Shown here in pieces: positions 8,118 to 26,857 of a DNA stretch of 26,951 nt. The stretch is from a virus. The notes below the pieces were generated by a model. The model saw only the letters and a program-made list of their open reading frames with translations, was not told where the DNA came from and ran no database searches. The translations under genes were made by a program, and so were the position numbers. Every line of letters begins with the position of its first letter. The stretch's first letter is position 1. Location: positions 1-26,951 of the IMG/VR virus record IMGVR_UViG_3300030104_006426. One strand, written 5' to 3'.

Positions 8118-11100
8118 ATGGCAAAATTTACAAAAACAGAGGAACTATTTAACTATGTTAAAGAGATTGGTCAATCAGTAGGACCAGTTAATGTAGGAAC
8201 TCCATTAACTATATATGATGGTGGGACACGAACATTGGGGGTTTTTTATCCAGAACGTGGTCAAAATCTTGAATTTAGAAATCCACTTGACCATGATGGA
8301 AACGAACCATATGCTAATGCCGGTTCATATTCCAGTCGCATAATAGAGGATTACGATGGTAGAGAACCATTAGGAACTATTGTCGTTAACGAGAGAGGAG
8401 ATTGGCCTGACGTAAATTATAACCCAGCCACACTTTCACCTTACTTAGCAAAGGTTTCAAATGTAGAAAACAAAGAAGAGGTAAATGTAACTAAACTAAA
8501 AGGTAGGAATAGAGAAACTATTTTTGTACCAGATAATACAATCGAACCACTCTCAGTTACCTACAGATTTTCTATTGATGCTTTACCATTTGTGTTAAAT
8601 AGTGCTGATGAAGATGAGATAATACACCTTGATAGATATTATGATAGACAGATAAATCCAACTGAGTATGGATTAGCAACAGAGGGTAAAATAAATTTTT
8701 ACCTTTATCCAAGACTTGATGGTAGAGAATCATTTAGACCACCATCAAACAATGTGTATAAAACATTTGTACCTTGGATGGAAAGAGGAGGATTTACAGC
8801 TGCAGATCCTGAAACCGGTGTAGGTGGAGTTAGTAGATTTAATGCTTATGCTAAATCAGGAGATAATGCTGGTGGTCCTGGTGGTTTTTATTTATTTAAA
8901 TTAAATTGGGGTGATGGTAGTCCTTTACAATATACCACCGATCCTCTACTTTTAGAACAATCTACTTTGTTAGAACACTATTACGATAAACCAGGATTTT
9001 ACAAAATTACTGGCGTGGTCTATGCTAGTTTCAAAGGAGAAAAGGTTGATAGTTATGAATTATTTGAAACATCTATATTTTTAAATCCATCTAAAAATTA
9101 TTCTATAAAAATGTTTGATTATGATGATTTTGCTATGATAGGTGGTGTGAGTAGAAACTCTGCGTTATCAAGAACAGCAGCAAATATATTAGGAATAGAT
9201 CCTTTAAAGTTATCTAATAGTCCTGATTTATTTTTAGCTGATGAAAGGAGTTCTCCTGAAGTTATTGAAAAATTAAATTTAATAGATAAGCTAGAACTCT
9301 TAAACTATCTTAGTAAATTAGAGGGTAGTGTGTTAACAAAATTTAATGAACTAATTGAACCATATTCAGGCAAACAACCGAGAGTTGACGAGTTTACAGG
9401 AGAAATTGAAGAACCAAATCCTCCTACAACACCACAGGATTATCAATATTATATTTTTAATGCTCCACTACATAATAGATTAAATTTGATTCCTGAAATA
9501 AATTATGGAATTATAACATTTAAATTAGCAAACGCTTTAGTACAAGATGATGATGCTGATTTATTTAGAACAACCAATCCGAATCCTGAACAAAGTTTTG
9601 ATATAGATTGGAATACTGTTTCTTATGAGATAGAATTAAAATACTTCGATGATGGTAGTAGTCCTTATTATGACGACTATGGTCGAACAGAATGGTTACC
9701 TCTTGGAACATATCCACATAGTCAAGTCTACGATGAAGATAATGACGAAATCATTGTGAGTGATGCATTTCAGTTCCAAGCTGGACATCCAGTGCCTGAA
9801 CTTGAAATGGTGGTGAATGAACCTTATAATTCATTATATATACCTGGTAGAGAGTATCAAGCTAGAGTAAGAATTAACGCTCAAGAATTACAACATCATA
9901 ATCCACCACTTTCTGTATCAAGTGGTTGGATTGAAATGGAAGAAGAAGGTGTTGTTGCTTTACCAATGGCAGAAAATACGGCAAAGGTATTTATAGATAT
10001 TAATCTAAACATAGCTGGTGATTTTCAAAGTGGTGATGGATTCCCAACTTTAAGTCCAGAGTACCCAAGTGGTTTTGATAATTTATTTTTAAATGCTGCC
10101 AATACTGAAGTACCGATTCAAGGTTCAACTGCTGAAGATTGGGAGTTTGGAGGTTGGAGTCTTGGTGGTAATAACAATGGTTTGTATTTAGAAAGTGGTG
10201 ATAATGAACGTATTAATAAACTTATGTTAAGTGAGGGGTATTCATATGACCCGAATGCTGAAGACACCACGATGGTCTTAAATGCAAACTATTCATATAA
10301 TGGTTCAAGTGGTGAAGATCCTCCACCAGAATTGGCAACAATTGATATAGAACTTTTACCACCACAAAATCCAAGTGGTAATGATACAGATGAGGCTACA
10401 TATTCATGGAATAGTGGAAATGATGAGACACAACTAACTACTAATTTTGATTCTGATTCTGCAGTAATATCTGCTCCAGATAGAGTTGTATCAATGGTAG
10501 CTCTTATTAGACAAGGTGGTGGAAGTAATGAGATAGGTCAAGACCAAAATCAAGCTGTTGTTGGTGGAGTTAGGTTTACATTAAATGGTGGTAATCTTAC
10601 TGCTCAAAATGAAAATGAAATGGAAGGTAGTTTTGAATCTATAGAAGTACAAGCAATAATGACCTCTACCGAAGGTGGTGGAGGCGGTGGTGGTAACTCG
10701 TGTTTCTTAAAAGGAACAATGATTACTATGGTAGATGGTAGTCAATTACCAATTGAAGATATACAAGTTGGAATGAAAGTAATGTCTTTTGATGAAAATA
10801 CAGGTGAGACAACCCATAATAAAGTGGTTGAAGTTTTCCATCATCCTAAAGAAGATACAAATGCTTATTTGATAATTAACGATACCATAAAAGTAACAGA
10901 GAATCACGTCATGTACGTTCCAAATAACAGATACACCGAAGACGATGGTCACATATGGTTAAGAGCTGACCACATCATAGTTGGTGATTTCTTGATAGGT
11001 AAATCTGCTGTTGAAGTTACGTCAATTAAAAAGGTAAACGAATCCGTTGCTACCTATAATTTTGAGGTAGAAAATACACACACTTATTTTGCTGAAGACG

Positions 11101-11204
11101 TGGTGGTGCATAATGCTGGTGGAGGTCCTGGTGGTGGTAGTGGTAAACAAAAACAAGGTGGAACTGGAGCTGGAGACGATAGTGGTACTGGAGGTGCTGG
11201 ATAA
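8118..11204 (+). CDS. large virion protein with PKD-like module and C-terminal Hint domain
   Basis: A 1028-aa probable tail or baseplate adhesion protein with an unusual C-terminus. Residues about 257-305 look PKD-like (LNWGDGSPLQY, then YDKPGFYKITGVVY). This is followed by a module with IGGVSRNSALSR (about 340) that is echoed in the 1001-aa gene downstream. A beta region near 670-710 (WEFGGWSLGG) may be an InlB-type repeat, weakly. From Cys862 to Asn999 there is a complete Hint domain, flanked by Gly runs on both sides and followed by only 29 Gly-rich residues. The protein could therefore cut itself near the C-terminus. The start follows the previous stop by a few bases with no strong ribosome binding site, so translation is probably coupled. 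Confidence 0.8.
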   Translation: MAKFTKTEELFNYVKEIGQSVGPVNVGTPLTIYDGGTRTLGVFYPERGQNLEFRNPLDHDGNEPYANAGSYSSRIIEDYDGREPLGTIVVNERGDWPDVNYNPATLSPYLAKVSNVENKEEVNVTKLKGRNRETIFVPDNTIEPLSVTYRFSIDALPFVLNSADEDEIIHLDRYYDRQINPTEYGLATEGKINFYLYPRLDGRESFRPPSNNVYKTFVPWMERGGFTAADPETGVGGVSRFNAYAKSGDNAGGPGGFYLFKLNWGDGSPLQYTTDPLLLEQSTLLEHYYDKPGFYKITGVVYASFKGEKVDSYELFETSIFLNPSKNYSIKMFDYDDFAMIGGVSRNSALSRTAANILGIDPLKLSNSPDLFLADERSSPEVIEKLNLIDKLELLNYLSKLEGSVLTKFNELIEPYSGKQPRVDEFTGEIEEPNPPTTPQDYQYYIFNAPLHNRLNLIPEINYGIITFKLANALVQDDDADLFRTTNPNPEQSFDIDWNTVSYEIELKYFDDGSSPYYDDYGRTEWLPLGTYPHSQVYDEDNDEIIVSDAFQFQAGHPVPELEMVVNEPYNSLYIPGREYQARVRINAQELQHHNPPLSVSSGWIEMEEEGVVALPMAENTAKVFIDINLNIAGDFQSGDGFPTLSPEYPSGFDNLFLNAANTEVPIQGSTAEDWEFGGWSLGGNNNGLYLESGDNERINKLMLSEGYSYDPNAEDTTMVLNANYSYNGSSGEDPPPELATIDIELLPPQNPSGNDTDEATYSWNSGNDETQLTTNFDSDSAVISAPDRVVSMVALIRQGGGSNEIGQDQNQAVVGGVRFTLNGGNLTAQNENEMEGSFESIEVQAIMTSTEGGGGGGGNSCFLKGTMITMVDGSQLPIEDIQVGMKVMSFDENTGETTHNKVVEVFHHPKEDTNAYLIINDTIKVTENHVMYVPNNRYTEDDGHIWLRADHIIVGDFLIGKSAVEVTSIKKVNESVATYNFEVENTHTYFAEDVVVHNAGGGPGGGSGKQKQGGTGAGDDSGTGGAG
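10701..11114 (+). other. Hint (intein/hedgehog-type) autoprocessing domain
   Basis: This is a 138-residue domain within the 1028-aa protein, residues 862-999. It begins with a Cys (SCFLKGTMITMVDGSQ), the N-terminal nucleophile of Hint domains, followed by the usual PIEDIQVGMKVMSF strand pair. The block-B TxxH motif is TENH at 927-930. The C-terminal block is NTHTYFAEDVVVHN, ending in His998-Asn999. The residue after Asn is Ala1000 rather than Cys, Ser or Thr. Canonical splicing needs a nucleophile there, so cleavage at one or both ends is more likely than protein splicing. This makes it resemble bacterial intein-like (BIL) or PT-Hint domains. There is no homing endonuclease insert. All key residues are present, so activity is expected but untested. 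Confidence 0.85.
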
Positions 11205-22198: not shown

Positions 22199-22492
22199 AT
22201 GAACAATCCAATAGCAAAATTTTATCAATGGCAAGTTAACTCAGGCGCTTTAGATGGATGGACATCATATCATTTAGCGGCTGGACTATTTATCGCTAAA
22301 GTAGCACAATGGTTAGGTCAATCTGATTTTTGGGCTGTAATGTGGGTTGTTATTATTGGAATTGCATGGGAAATATTTGAAGTATATGTTGAAGGTACTG
22401 AAGAAACATATGGAACAAAAGAAAGATGGGCTTGGAATACAGGAACAGATTTATTTGTTGAAATTGCTGCCGCTTGGTGGATGGTATTATAG
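22199..22492 (+). CDS. small inner-membrane protein (holin candidate or VanZ/YjdF-like)
   Basis: A 97-aa protein with two or three predicted membrane helices: about residues 24-38 (YHLAAGLFIAKVAQW, borderline), 43-60 (DFWAVMWVVIIGIAWEIF) and 82-97 (LFVEIAAAWWMVL). Polar residues lie within or beside them (His, WE and NTGTDLFVE), as in small VanZ/YjdF-type membrane proteins. There is no signal peptide beyond the first helix. Position at the end of the structural genes, size and helix count would also suit a holin, but no endolysin is adjacent and the fold is not diagnostic. The next gene starts ten bases after its stop, so the two are co-transcribed. Confidence 0.7.
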   Translation: MNNPIAKFYQWQVNSGALDGWTSYHLAAGLFIAKVAQWLGQSDFWAVMWVVIIGIAWEIFEVYVEGTEETYGTKERWAWNTGTDLFVEIAAAWWMVL

Positions 22493-22501
22493 GAGAAACA
22501 G

Positions 22502-23800
22502 ATGTTAAAGAAAATTATATTAGGTTTATTACTAACCTCATCTTTGTTTGGTGAAAACGAGATATGGAAGTTTTTAAAATACTCAACTGCTTATGGTAGT
22601 TTTAGTTTAAATGCTCCACGATATCAAGACGATAGATTTGCTATTATAGGTGGATTGTCTTCAGGTATTCTACAAGTAGAAAGAACTGAAAGAGAATTAA
22701 AACCTGATTTTCAAAAGTCATTTGGACTTCGTAAAATTGGAAGATTTCAATACGAACCAAAACGAGGTGTTAAATCTGCTGGTAAGGGTGGAACTTGGTA
22801 CGATGGTTCAGAACAAAACTCTAACGAAAGTGCTACATTCGGACCTGTTAAAGGTTGGGAGTATCTCATCAAGTGGACTGAAGGTAGACAATGGGGTAAC
22901 GATTATCTTAATCAAGAATATTGGATAAGATACATCGGTGATTGGACAATGGCTAAAGTCGGTAAGACAGAATTAGGTCTTGAAGATATTAGTTACATTC
23001 ATGGTGATTTGAGAATACATTGGACACCTGAAGTTTTAAATAATAAGTTACATTTTTCCATTGGTGCTAAACATAGACAACATCCAGTATATGGATTCGA
23101 TGCTATGGTATTAGATACGACTTGGTATAAAGGTCAATGGTGGAATTTTGCTGAAGACGCATTTGGTATAGATGATAACATGTGGTATGACTCGACTATG
23201 CTTGACCCGAACTCTCCAACTGGTTGGAAAAAAAGAACACTTTATGAAGTAGATCCTGAAACAGGTGAAATCAGAGAAGTAGAAGGTGAAGGTCCTTTTT
23301 GGAATGGTAGAGGTGAGTATTGGGGACACGATTGGTTGTGGAGAGGTGAAGATGGTCGTATATTTGCTTATACAGATAGAGAATATTTTGTATATCACTT
23401 CCCAAGAATGTTAGAAAAGTACATCAATGGTAAGAAAAGTGATTTAGGATATCAAGGTGAAACTTCAATTGTATTAGGAATTGATTGGTATCACTATGAT
23501 GAAAATTGGTGGTTACATGCTTGGGGTAATTGGTTACCATATCATTATGGTCATACTGATTATGCTTATCATAATGCTGCACACTATCAAACTCATTTAG
23601 AGGAAGGTGGTGAACCAAGTGAATTTATGTTTATGGAGCCAATGTGGCATAGTTGGAATGATTATGATTATGGTGCTATATTTGGTGTAAAAATTAAAGA
23701 CAACTTAGGTGTCTTTACTGAAGGTCGTTATTTGTATTATTGGGAACGACCAGCCTATGACATTAAGTTCGGAATGAACTATCAGTTTGTAGGGTGGTAA
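22502..23800 (+). CDS. exported Trp-rich protein, outer-membrane beta-barrel candidate
   Basis: A 432-aa protein with a standard signal peptide (MLKKIILGLLLTSSLFG, cleavage near residue 17). The mature part is extremely aromatic, with about 26 Trp plus many Tyr and His, including the dense stretch IDWYHYDENWWLHAWGNW near residue 325. Alternating strands such as YWIRYIGDW, HFSIGAKHRQ, GAIFGVKIKD and GVFTEGRYLYYW are typical of outer-membrane barrels, and the C-terminal residue is aromatic (QFVGW), as needed for barrel assembly. I cannot name a family. A phage-encoded surface protein could alter receptor access or nutrient uptake during infection, which is inference. It has an AGGAGA ribosome binding site six bases upstream. 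Confidence 0.72.
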   Translation: MLKKIILGLLLTSSLFGENEIWKFLKYSTAYGSFSLNAPRYQDDRFAIIGGLSSGILQVERTERELKPDFQKSFGLRKIGRFQYEPKRGVKSAGKGGTWYDGSEQNSNESATFGPVKGWEYLIKWTEGRQWGNDYLNQEYWIRYIGDWTMAKVGKTELGLEDISYIHGDLRIHWTPEVLNNKLHFSIGAKHRQHPVYGFDAMVLDTTWYKGQWWNFAEDAFGIDDNMWYDSTMLDPNSPTGWKKRTLYEVDPETGEIREVEGEGPFWNGRGEYWGHDWLWRGEDGRIFAYTDREYFVYHFPRMLEKYINGKKSDLGYQGETSIVLGIDWYHYDENWWLHAWGNWLPYHYGHTDYAYHNAAHYQTHLEEGGEPSEFMFMEPMWHSWNDYDYGAIFGVKIKDNLGVFTEGRYLYYWERPAYDIKFGMNYQFVGW

Positions 23801-23813
23801 ACTGGAGAACACT

Positions 23814-23885
23814 ATGTGTAATTGTAATGATTGTTCGTGTGATAAATGTTTAAGTGGATGTACATGTACATCTTGTGATTGTTAG
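23814..23885 (+). CDS. 23-aa cysteine-rich, metallothionein-like peptide
   Basis: A very short open reading frame encoding 23 residues, nine of them Cys (positions 2, 4, 7, 9, 12, 16, 18, 21 and 23). The spacing is CxC, CxxC, CxC, CxxC, CxxxC, CxC, CxxC, CxC, alternating in the way metallothioneins bind Zn, Cu or Cd in thiolate clusters. The other residues are small or polar (Asn, Asp, Ser, Thr, Lys, Gly). A good GGAGA ribosome binding site lies at 23804-23808, five bases before the ATG. The stop TAG forms part of the AGGAGA site of the next gene, so it fits the operon spacing exactly. Without an export signal it would act in the cytoplasm. Metal binding is inferred from composition; expression is not proven. 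Confidence 0.7.
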   Translation: MCNCNDCSCDKCLSGCTCTSCDC

Positions 23886-23894
23886 GAGATAAAA

Positions 23895-24461
23895 ATGAAG
23901 AAGTTATTATTGTTATCATTACTATTTTTGTTTAGTTGTGAAGACGATAGAGTAGAAGAACCATTAGTAGAAAATATTCAAATGTGGGTAAATGGTACAG
24001 AGATTATTGCTCGTGAGTATTACGAAAGTATTACTACATATGGAGCGTCAGAAGTACAAGAAGATGGTTCTGTAAAGAAGATATTTGTACTACACTTTCA
24101 AAGAGAAGATGGTAGAGTTACACCTGAAAAGGAACATTACGCTCTAATTATGTATGATAATGCTGGTCAAGATAATGGACAGCCAATAGATGAGAAACTC
24201 TATTTAGGTGGTACACAAATGGATTCATTATTACTACAAACAACAAGTGGTAGAATCACATTAGAGATTGTAGGTCTATCTGATTATACGGAGTTCTCAC
24301 AAGCATCAATCGATAAGTATGAAGATGGTTTAGTGAGTGGTATGGCTGATGGATATTTCTTTAATCCATATAGGAATGTGATGCAACATGGTATAATTAT
24401 TTTTGATAACTTAGAAGTGGGTTCAGATCCTGAAGCTACTTTTTATCAAGGAATATATTAG
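23895..24461 (+). CDS. lipoprotein, probably outer-membrane/surface
   Basis: A 188-aa lipoprotein. The signal peptide MKKLLLLSLLFLFSC ends in a lipobox (L-F-S-C) with the lipidated Cys at residue 15. The mature start CEDD is strongly acidic, like the lipoprotein export signal that sends lipoproteins to the cell surface in Bacteroidota. The mature domain is beta-rich (HFQREDG, HYALIMYDNAG, GRITLEIVGLSDY) with no family I recognise. Phage lipoproteins are known to block superinfection in other systems (lambda Bor-like, T5 Llp), so a similar role is possible but not shown. The ribosome binding site overlaps the stop of the Cys-rich peptide, and its own stop overlaps the next GTG start by one base. 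Confidence 0.8.
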   Translation: MKKLLLLSLLFLFSCEDDRVEEPLVENIQMWVNGTEIIAREYYESITTYGASEVQEDGSVKKIFVLHFQREDGRVTPEKEHYALIMYDNAGQDNGQPIDEKLYLGGTQMDSLLLQTTSGRITLEIVGLSDYTEFSQASIDKYEDGLVSGMADGYFFNPYRNVMQHGIIIFDNLEVGSDPEATFYQGIY

Positions 24462-25129: not shown

Positions 25130-25504
25130 ATGCGAAATTTATTATGTTTATTGTTATTTCTATCTGTTACTTTCGGACAAGTAAATGATAAAAATTTCAA
25201 ATCAACAATAAATGGTGGAATGGTAGTTGCAGTATTCACATCAGAATGGCAAGAACAACCATTTGACAAAGATATTCTAAAGGGGGTTAGTGGATATCAA
25301 GATTGTGAAATAGTGTATGTAAAAAGTGAAGAAGCTAAAAAGGTGGTAAAAAAATTAAGATTAAGAAACTTCCCATCTATTGCTTTATTTTATGATGGTT
25401 CTAAGAAAGAAACTTGGAAGGCTGATATGGATGGAGAGTTAGACATCGATAATAAGGACGTTAAAAATGCTATTGATGATGTCCTAGCCGAAGATGTATT
25501 CTGA
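25130..25504 (+). CDS. exported thioredoxin-fold protein lacking the CxxC motif
   Basis: A 124-aa protein with a signal peptide (MRNLLCLLLFLSVTFG, cleavage before Gln17), so it is periplasmic. The mature part follows the thioredoxin order: strand MVVAVFTSEW, the active-site helix start, strand EIVYVKSEEA, then LRNFPSIALFYDG with the cis-proline at residue 82. Where thioredoxins have WCxxC this protein has Trp40-Gln-Glu-Gln-Pro, so both cysteines are missing and no redox activity is expected. Such folds can act as binding or chaperone modules. The ribosome binding site AGGAG at 25119-25123 overlaps the previous stop. It is the last gene before a terminator, ending the cassette. Confidence 0.72.
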   Translation: MRNLLCLLLFLSVTFGQVNDKNFKSTINGGMVVAVFTSEWQEQPFDKDILKGVSGYQDCEIVYVKSEEAKKVVKKLRLRNFPSIALFYDGSKKETWKADMDGELDIDNKDVKNAIDDVLAEDVF

Positions 25505-25573: not shown

Positions 25574-25714
25574 CGCACTCCTCTAAGTTCAACAATATCA
25601 ACACAGAAAAAAAAGTTTTAAAAATAGACCACTTTGGTACAGTTATTGTAGTATATAGGTAGAAATATGACTCACAAGGGGTTACATTCTAAACAAAACG
25701 ATAGGAGAACTGAA
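25574..25714 (+). promoter_or_regulatory. leader of the prepilin unit, probable promoter region
   Basis: A gap of about 140 bases between the terminator and the first prepilin gene. It is AT-rich, with A-runs near 25604-25612 and a TATATAGG at 25652-25659. A TTGGTA at 25634-25639 lies too close to that element for a standard 17-base spacing, so no firm -35/-10 pair is called. A promoter must lie here or the unit would be silent after the terminator. The phage or host RNA polymerase specificity is unknown. Confidence 0.4.
25703..25708 (+). promoter_or_regulatory. ribosome binding site deciding the first prepilin start
   Basis: AGGAGA six bases before the ATG at 25715. It supports this start over an in-frame ATG at 25667, which has no such site and would add 16 residues unlike a prepilin leader. 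Confidence 0.75.
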
Positions 25715-26374
25715 ATGTTCGAAACAATAAAAAAACTTTTAAAAAAGTTAAATAAAAAATTGAAGAGTAATACGGGTAATTCACTTGCTGAATTTGCGGT
25801 TACTACTGCTATGATGGCAACACTTGCTACAACAGCCGCTCCAAAATTTGGACAAATAGGTGCTGGGGCAAAAGAAAAAAAGACCATCGCTAATATCGAT
25901 AAAATTATTACTGTTGCTAATAACTTTTATAATCAAACATTATCTGAAGAGGGTAAAGGAAGATTTCCTGGTCAATCTAAATATGACTCACCTGTTGGTG
26001 GAATTTCATTAGGTGAGAATCAACTTACTGATGAAGCTCTTGAGATATATGTTGAAACTATTCTTGATGATAAAGAAAACTACGAATCAGACTTAGGTGA
26101 GTTTGTTTATGTATTTTCAACCGCAACAGATGACGATGATGCCTTACAAGGTAATTGGATGAATACACAAACTTCAGTAGTATTTGATACTGATGGGGCT
26201 TTGGACTTCAAAAAAGACTTTGGTAACAATGGTATATCATCTCCATTTCAGGATGGTTCATATGCTTACTTAGTAATTCCAGGAAGTGGAAGTGGAACAG
26301 ATGCTCAAGCACCTGCCCTTATCGTAATAGATACTGAAAATCCTGCTGAATTAAATAAAACTTTAGTACCTTAA
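25715..26374 (+). CDS. prepilin-like protein with long leader
   Basis: A 219-aa prepilin-type protein. The leader is 21 residues and very Lys-rich (MFETIKKLLKKLNKKLKSN), ending in Gly21. The mature N-terminus reads NSLAEFAVTTAMMATL, with Glu at +5 after the predicted cut. These are the features recognised by prepilin peptidase, and a hydrophobic helix follows to about residue 43 (ending TTAAPKF). The first mature residue is Asn rather than Phe or Met, and the helix is Ala/Thr-rich, unlike classic GFTLIE pilins, so it belongs to a different pilin subtype. The C-terminal domain is acidic with aromatic strands (YVFSTATDDDDAL). It is followed 33 bases later by a second prepilin gene. The start is chosen from the AGGAGA site. 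Confidence 0.75.
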   Translation: MFETIKKLLKKLNKKLKSNTGNSLAEFAVTTAMMATLATTAAPKFGQIGAGAKEKKTIANIDKIITVANNFYNQTLSEEGKGRFPGQSKYDSPVGGISLGENQLTDEALEIYVETILDDKENYESDLGEFVYVFSTATDDDDALQGNWMNTQTSVVFDTDGALDFKKDFGNNGISSPFQDGSYAYLVIPGSGSGTDAQAPALIVIDTENPAELNKTLVP

Positions 26375-26407
26375 ACAACAGAACGAAAGTTCAGAAAGAG
26401 AAACGAC

Positions 26408-26857
26408 ATGAAGAAACTAAAAAACCAAAACGGATTCACTCTTATTGAGTTGATAATGGTTATGATAATATTAGGTATATTATCAGCTGTTGCAATTCCA
26501 CGATACTTAGAGACTATTCAGAAAGCTGAAGAAGCTTCCGAAGATGCTGTCATAAGTAACATTGGTGTGGCACTTGAAAACTATGGAGTTCATAAACTCA
26601 TAGATGCTGGTAGAGCTATATGGCCAGATAATCCATTTGACGCTTTAAAAGACAAACCACAAACATACACAACTGATGGTACAAATGCCGACACAGATAA
26701 TGAGTGGACATTTGTAGATGGTGATCCTGCTTATATTACCCACCAAAGGTCTGATAACACCAGATGGAAGTGGGAGTATGATGCCGGTATAAACACAGGA
26801 ACAGATGCGGACACTACCGGATTCTTAGGAAACCGAGAAAGTCTTGTAAGTGAATAA
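26408..26857 (+). CDS. type IV prepilin / pseudopilin (GspG-like)
   Basis: A 149-aa protein with a textbook type IV prepilin signal: a 9-residue basic leader MKKLKNQNG, cleavage before Phe10, Glu14 at +5, and the helix FTLIELIMVMIILGILSAVA followed by IPRYLE. The extended helix and short C-terminal domain (YGVHKLIDAGRAIWPDNPF, then a Trp/Asp-rich beta part) fit a minor pilin or GspG-type pseudopilin. Such proteins are inserted in the inner membrane, cut and methylated by prepilin peptidase, and polymerised by a pilus or type II secretion assembly system. No assembly ATPase or peptidase lies in this window, so host machinery would be needed. The ribosome binding site is weak (AGAGAAA). Confidence 0.88.
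   Translation: MKKLKNQNGFTLIELIMVMIILGILSAVAIPRYLETIQKAEEASEDAVISNIGVALENYGVHKLIDAGRAIWPDNPFDALKDKPQTYTTDGTNADTDNEWTFVDGDPAYITHQRSDNTRWKWEYDAGINTGTDADTTGFLGNRESLVSE

Follow-up and report, generated by a model that had tools for sequence, protein, structure and literature searches.

A cysteine-rich micro-gene between exported-protein genes of a tailed phage, with a possible metallothionein-like product

Metallothioneins are very small Cu-, Zn- or Cd-thiolate proteins, 25-60% cysteine, whose cysteines are spaced as CxC, CC and CxxC and in which aromatic and other hydrophobic residues are nearly absent. Those of the prokaryotic SmtA/PmtA type, with about 55-80 residues, histidine ligands and a folded zinc-finger-like part, carry a CxCxxCxC motif near the N-terminus. 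From mycobacteria, polycysteine short open reading frames (ORFs) are described as leaders (Canestrari et al. 2020, as cited in PMC13236596 and PMC9094748), and Fe-S genes are known auxiliary genes of marine phages (PMC5332604); the text of the latter paper on IscU and Fe-S auxiliary genes nowhere mentions cysteine. Searches of open-licence papers on metallothionein with auxiliary metabolic genes and on related topics turned up no report of phage peptides like those described here, and a review of phage small proteins makes no mention of cysteine, metal or zinc.

The window, that is, the whole 26,951-base virus record that was analysed, comes from a marine phage and contains a tailed-phage structural region of baseplate and tail-like genes, its baseplate protein sharing 30-32% identity with proteins of a Microcystis phage and of Flavobacterium phages. 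3' of this region come exported-protein genes, a gene for a protein with a c-di-GMP domain, and pilin-like genes. A micro-gene occupies the gap between two of the exported-protein genes, exactly where a sequence-only reading had placed it, and its neighbours encode a barrel-like exported protein and a lipoprotein (Table 1). The upstream product is probably an outer-membrane beta barrel, since outer-membrane barrels are the best Foldseek matches of its predicted structure, although the low confidence of that model (pLDDT 57) makes the fold matches indicative only. The model of the lipoprotein has a pLDDT of 67.

Table 1. Features of the micro-gene and its flanks in the window.
Feature	Position	Strand	Basis
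Micro-gene, 23-residue cysteine-rich peptide MCNCNDCSCDKCLSGCTCTSCDC	23814..23885	+	ORF read, relatives and selection
Shine-Dalgarno site of the micro-gene, GGAG, ctGGAGaacactATG	23805..23808	+	Sequence
Ribosome-binding AGGAG ahead of the downstream gene, sharing bases with the TAG stop of the micro-gene	23884..23888	+	Sequence
Upstream neighbour, exported protein, probable outer-membrane beta barrel	22502..23800	+	Low-confidence model, Foldseek
Downstream neighbour, predicted lipoprotein, lipobox SCEDD in LFLFSCEDD	23895..24461	+	No family match

Elsewhere in the window, positions 22199-22492 encode a 97-residue membrane protein with a sub-cutoff partial match to heliorhodopsin (PF18761, E 0.01; E 4e-4 for its relative at locus L304), and positions 8118-11204 a large virion-like protein with a C-terminal portion similar, by eye only, to a Hint/intein domain (CFLKGTMITMVDGSQLPIEDIQVG...VVVHNAGG). 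At its N-terminus, the membrane protein encoded at 24461-25120 matches the MshE-type c-di-GMP-binding domain above cutoff (NF053729, 41.8 bits). Its gene is followed by a thioredoxin-like gene (25130-25504; PF00085, E 7e-4, under the family cutoff) and then by two pilin- or pseudopilin-like genes (25667-26857; N_methyl, GspG-like) at the end of the structural region. No Rfam families were found in the window.

The 23 codons of the micro-gene specify nine cysteines (39%) in the spacing CxCxxCxCxxCxxxCxCxxCxC; cysteine makes up 0.21% of the long ORFs of the window. The stop codon (TAG, 23883-23885) runs into the ribosome-binding site of the gene beginning at 23895, and this overlap would tightly couple the translation of the two genes. 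The same arrangement is present at loci L014, L015 and L039, and a GGAG or AGGAG site lies 5' of nearly all related micro-ORFs. The ORF itself thus confirms the earlier claims of an own ribosome site, a stop forming part of the next one, and nine cysteines among 23 residues in CxC/CxxC spacing.

Searches with the lipoprotein gave 27 related loci, and those with the exported protein gave 59. Among 49 loci with the barrel gene, representing 39 distinct proteins, a cysteine-rich micro-ORF of 12-43 residues adjoins this gene in 29, downstream in 23 and upstream in six, nearly always within about 20 bases; the barrel gene is the constant neighbour among related phages. Same-place micro-ORFs include MKKCDCCDCCNCGCGC (L002), MSECGCKDCICNGGCMNCKCCKC (L014), MCNCENCNCDCGCCDK (L005), MCECKNCKCNESCGCGNCNC (L038), MCKLKCDCCDCCDCCNC (L042) and MCDCCGCDCNCNCGK (L035), and L047 and L004 have a 43-residue form. 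The gene 3' of the micro-ORF varies, encoding a lipoprotein, the barrel protein, a membrane protein like that starting at 24461, or a poly-Lys protein. Peptide sequence and cysteine spacing change from genome to genome while cysteine density is kept. Presence and side of the micro-ORF require at least eight changes on the barrel-protein tree, and it can be present, absent or shifted even between close relatives. Where it is absent, the stop of the exported-protein gene usually runs into the next gene, and otherwise other sequence is found; no relative was seen to retain the gap with a broken cysteine-rich frame, the observation that had been named as contrary to a gene. Since some relatives lack it, the micro-gene is dispensable. 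Eight long contigs from the group of the window, scanned over the parts retrieved, show essentially one cysteine micro-gene per genome, the copy in G003 being that at L020/L033.

A single 120-kb contig (IMGVR_UViG_3300030085_004215) has locus L030 at one end and L003 at the other, and these hold different versions of the barrel region with different cysteine peptides (MCNCENCNCDCGCCDK upstream and MKKCDCCNCCDCGCGC downstream), reflecting either two copies or a mixed assembly. Three of the eight long relatives have a tRNA-Cys(GCA) gene, G001 (L423:11196-11270), G004 (L442:7618-7691) and G007 (L452:10663-10737); G001 and G004 additionally encode tmRNA. The phage tRNA-Cys could serve translation of the cysteine-rich peptide.

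Chance origin of these micro-ORFs is ruled out by shuffle, strand and ribosome-site controls. When the complete window was dinucleotide-shuffled 300 times and read on both strands, a single ORF had at least five cysteines at 33% and none had seven or more, and in 878 kb of related loci (a redundant set) such ORFs with a Shine-Dalgarno site numbered 37 on the gene strand and none on the other. Eight close pairs gave a view of selection. Their 64 cysteine codons show nine synonymous changes and one non-synonymous change, and their 82 other codons 12 and 15, respectively (Fisher P = 0.023); against neutral cysteine codons, with a transition bias (kappa) of 2-5, P is about 2e-6 to 3e-5. The claim of a hidden gene is therefore upheld by a conserved cysteine-rich frame and purifying selection on its cysteine codons, and on this comparative evidence the micro-gene is a real gene.

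Constraint extends beyond cysteine. Across 25 distinct relatives, averaging 45% cysteine, hydrophobic residues occupy 19 of 243 non-cysteine positions against 78 expected, a fourfold depletion, and N, D, E, K and G dominate. CxC gaps number 106, compared with 46 under shuffling and a maximum of 67 in 2000 shuffles, and no run of cysteines exceeds three. The depletion of hydrophobic residues and the preference for CxC imply that the peptide, and not merely its codons, matters.

The window peptide and its relatives thus combine low mass and a cysteine content of about a quarter or more with CxC/CC/CxxC spacing and a near absence of aromatic and hydrophobic residues, as metallothioneins do. Their core is like the N-terminal CxCxxCxC of the SmtA/PmtA type, and the CxCxPCxC of the IscU-linked peptides described below is most like it. 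Unlike metallothioneins, these peptides are mostly 12-23 residues long, are phage-encoded and turn over their cysteine spacing rapidly between close relatives, and unlike the SmtA/PmtA type they have virtually no histidine. They also match no family model: Pfam, NCBIfam, PHROGs and PDB searches with the window peptide and its longest relatives gave no significant family, and among metallothionein models the best was PF12749 (E 0.49, 10.8 bits against a cutoff of 22), with none from NCBIfam, although the shortness of the peptides limits the power of such searches. The proposed likeness to a minimal metallothionein is accordingly borne out in composition and spacing and not by any family model, and the peptide fits a metallothionein-like kind outside any known sequence family. 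The suggestion that it might be post-translationally modified found no support, there being no maturation-enzyme domain among the immediate neighbours tested.

Similar peptides are also present in marine phages unrelated to this one. The pattern of a ribosome site followed by MC[KNDE]CxxCxC matched 26 viral stretches, compared with four when the site was replaced by a control pentamer. The 26 are mostly free-standing peptides of 9-20 residues, several of them in unrelated phages, and they need not be homologous to the window peptide and may be convergent. They adjoin capsid-like genes (L302, L322), a DUF6267-containing region (L298 type), a CopC copper-protein gene (L318, peptide MCNCTNCTC) and IscU genes (L301, L310, L311, L314), the last identified by PF01592 with E values of 1e-51 to 1e-54. 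No such peptide was found in the capsid region of pelagiphage HTVC115P or in an Acinetobacter isc operon. Nine matches came from GTDB, of which L329 and L331 resemble phage contigs and most others look like chance. A tblastn search with three peptides against named phages gave no match, although its low-complexity filter may mask such queries. Scans of viral contigs for cysteine spacing alone returned mostly simple repeats and carry no weight here, apart from refinding L003 and L002.

The linkage to IscU is close. A cysteine-rich ORF lies on the gene strand in 34 of the best 80 viral IscU loci, and directly 3' of IscU at least five cysteines fall within 16 codons in 25 of the 77 loci with enough downstream sequence. 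The usual form is MCKCxxCxCxPCxC, its ATG overlapping the IscU stop; at L363, L367 and L391 a longer form is encoded some 0.6 kb 5' of IscU, ahead of a nuclease-like gene. Two of the IscU-peptide loci, L411 and L414, also hold a gene that resembles an A-type carrier by sequence motif only. In contrast, a search of nine contigs from the group of the window detected neither IscU (PF01592) nor the A-type carrier (PF01521), and the window peptide, which adjoins barrel-protein and lipoprotein genes and not IscU, falls outside the IscU-linked class.

Our favoured reading, held with moderate confidence, is that the peptide works like a minimal metallothionein in the infected cell, binding soft metals. 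Composition, spacing and the metal-related neighbours of such peptides in other phages all point to metal-thiolate binding; IscU and CopC provide metal-handling contexts at unrelated loci, and the metal context is indirect in the window's own group, where neither IscU nor the A-type carrier was detected in the nine contigs searched and the constant neighbour is a probable outer-membrane barrel. The micro-gene would give a very small, hydrophilic, cysteine-rich peptide, translated from its own ribosome site in coupling with the surrounding exported-protein genes, downstream of the structural genes. Having no signal peptide, the product is probably cytoplasmic. Its CxC/CxxC cysteines would hold Zn2+ or Cu+, both soft metal ions, as a metal-thiolate cluster, and the peptide may buffer or redirect metal during infection and incidentally take up thiol oxidants too. 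We infer its translation, its metal binding, the metal bound and any advantage to the phage. More tentatively, several unrelated marine phage groups may carry dedicated, unannotated micro-metallothioneins of about 9-43 residues, some of them fixed partners of IscU, with spacing that evolves fast and cysteine density that is kept.

The IscU linkage makes a role in Fe-S metabolism the main rival, if a doubtful one: the peptides would receive, transport or assist in loading Fe-S clusters (or iron or sulfur), cooperating with a phage or host scaffold such as IscU. The peptides that follow phage IscU genes, the A-type-carrier-like genes beside two of them and the standing of Fe-S genes as marine phage auxiliary genes are all consistent with it. 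However, no such partner genes were detected in the nine contigs searched from the window's group, its peptides differ in spacing (CC, CxC) and lack the proline, and the same kind of peptide also lies beside capsid and CopC genes. Improbable in our view is a metal-free thiol or redox buffer, acting as a reductant or through disulfides to protect thiols or aid folding of the exported phage proteins. The exported-protein module does include a thioredoxin-like gene and the peptide is rich in thiols, but that gene is not a constant neighbour, a peptide without a signal would remain in an already reducing cytoplasm, and CxC is strongly preferred where any cysteine would suffice. A host-takeover peptide, inhibiting a host protein by binding it or stripping its zinc, is quite improbable; an accessory pattern even among close relatives is typical of phage host-interaction genes, but sequence and spacing so variable that only cysteine is kept are unlike a surface fitting one protein partner.

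Least probable of all, a cysteine-codon attenuator, in which clustered cysteine codons would sense charged tRNA-Cys and control the next gene in cis whatever the peptide, is unlikely: as in the mycobacterial precedent, the micro-ORF is short, rich in cysteine codons and directly before another gene, its stop overlaps the ribosome site of that gene, and three relatives have a tRNA-Cys gene, but an attenuator of the mycobacterial type would have a leaderless ORF and, ahead of an unvarying operon, a regulatory RNA structure or a terminator, and the reading is disfavoured here because the following gene differs between genomes, there is a ribosome site and no terminator-like hairpin, RNA folding is no better than in shuffles (z-scores -1.4 to +1.3), cysteine runs stop at three, and selection also acts on non-cysteine residues and CxC spacing, which a codon counter would not need.

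Genes of 12-23 codons lie under the usual annotation limits, and a whole class of phage products may therefore be missed. If these peptides bind metal, phages have metal-thiolate peptides of their own, tied in many genomes to the gene of an Fe-S scaffold, and the idea that phages control the supply of metal and Fe-S in metal-poor seawater becomes directly testable. Were the micro-metallothionein reading true, it would reveal a previously unrecognised route by which phages control the allocation of metal and Fe-S during infection.
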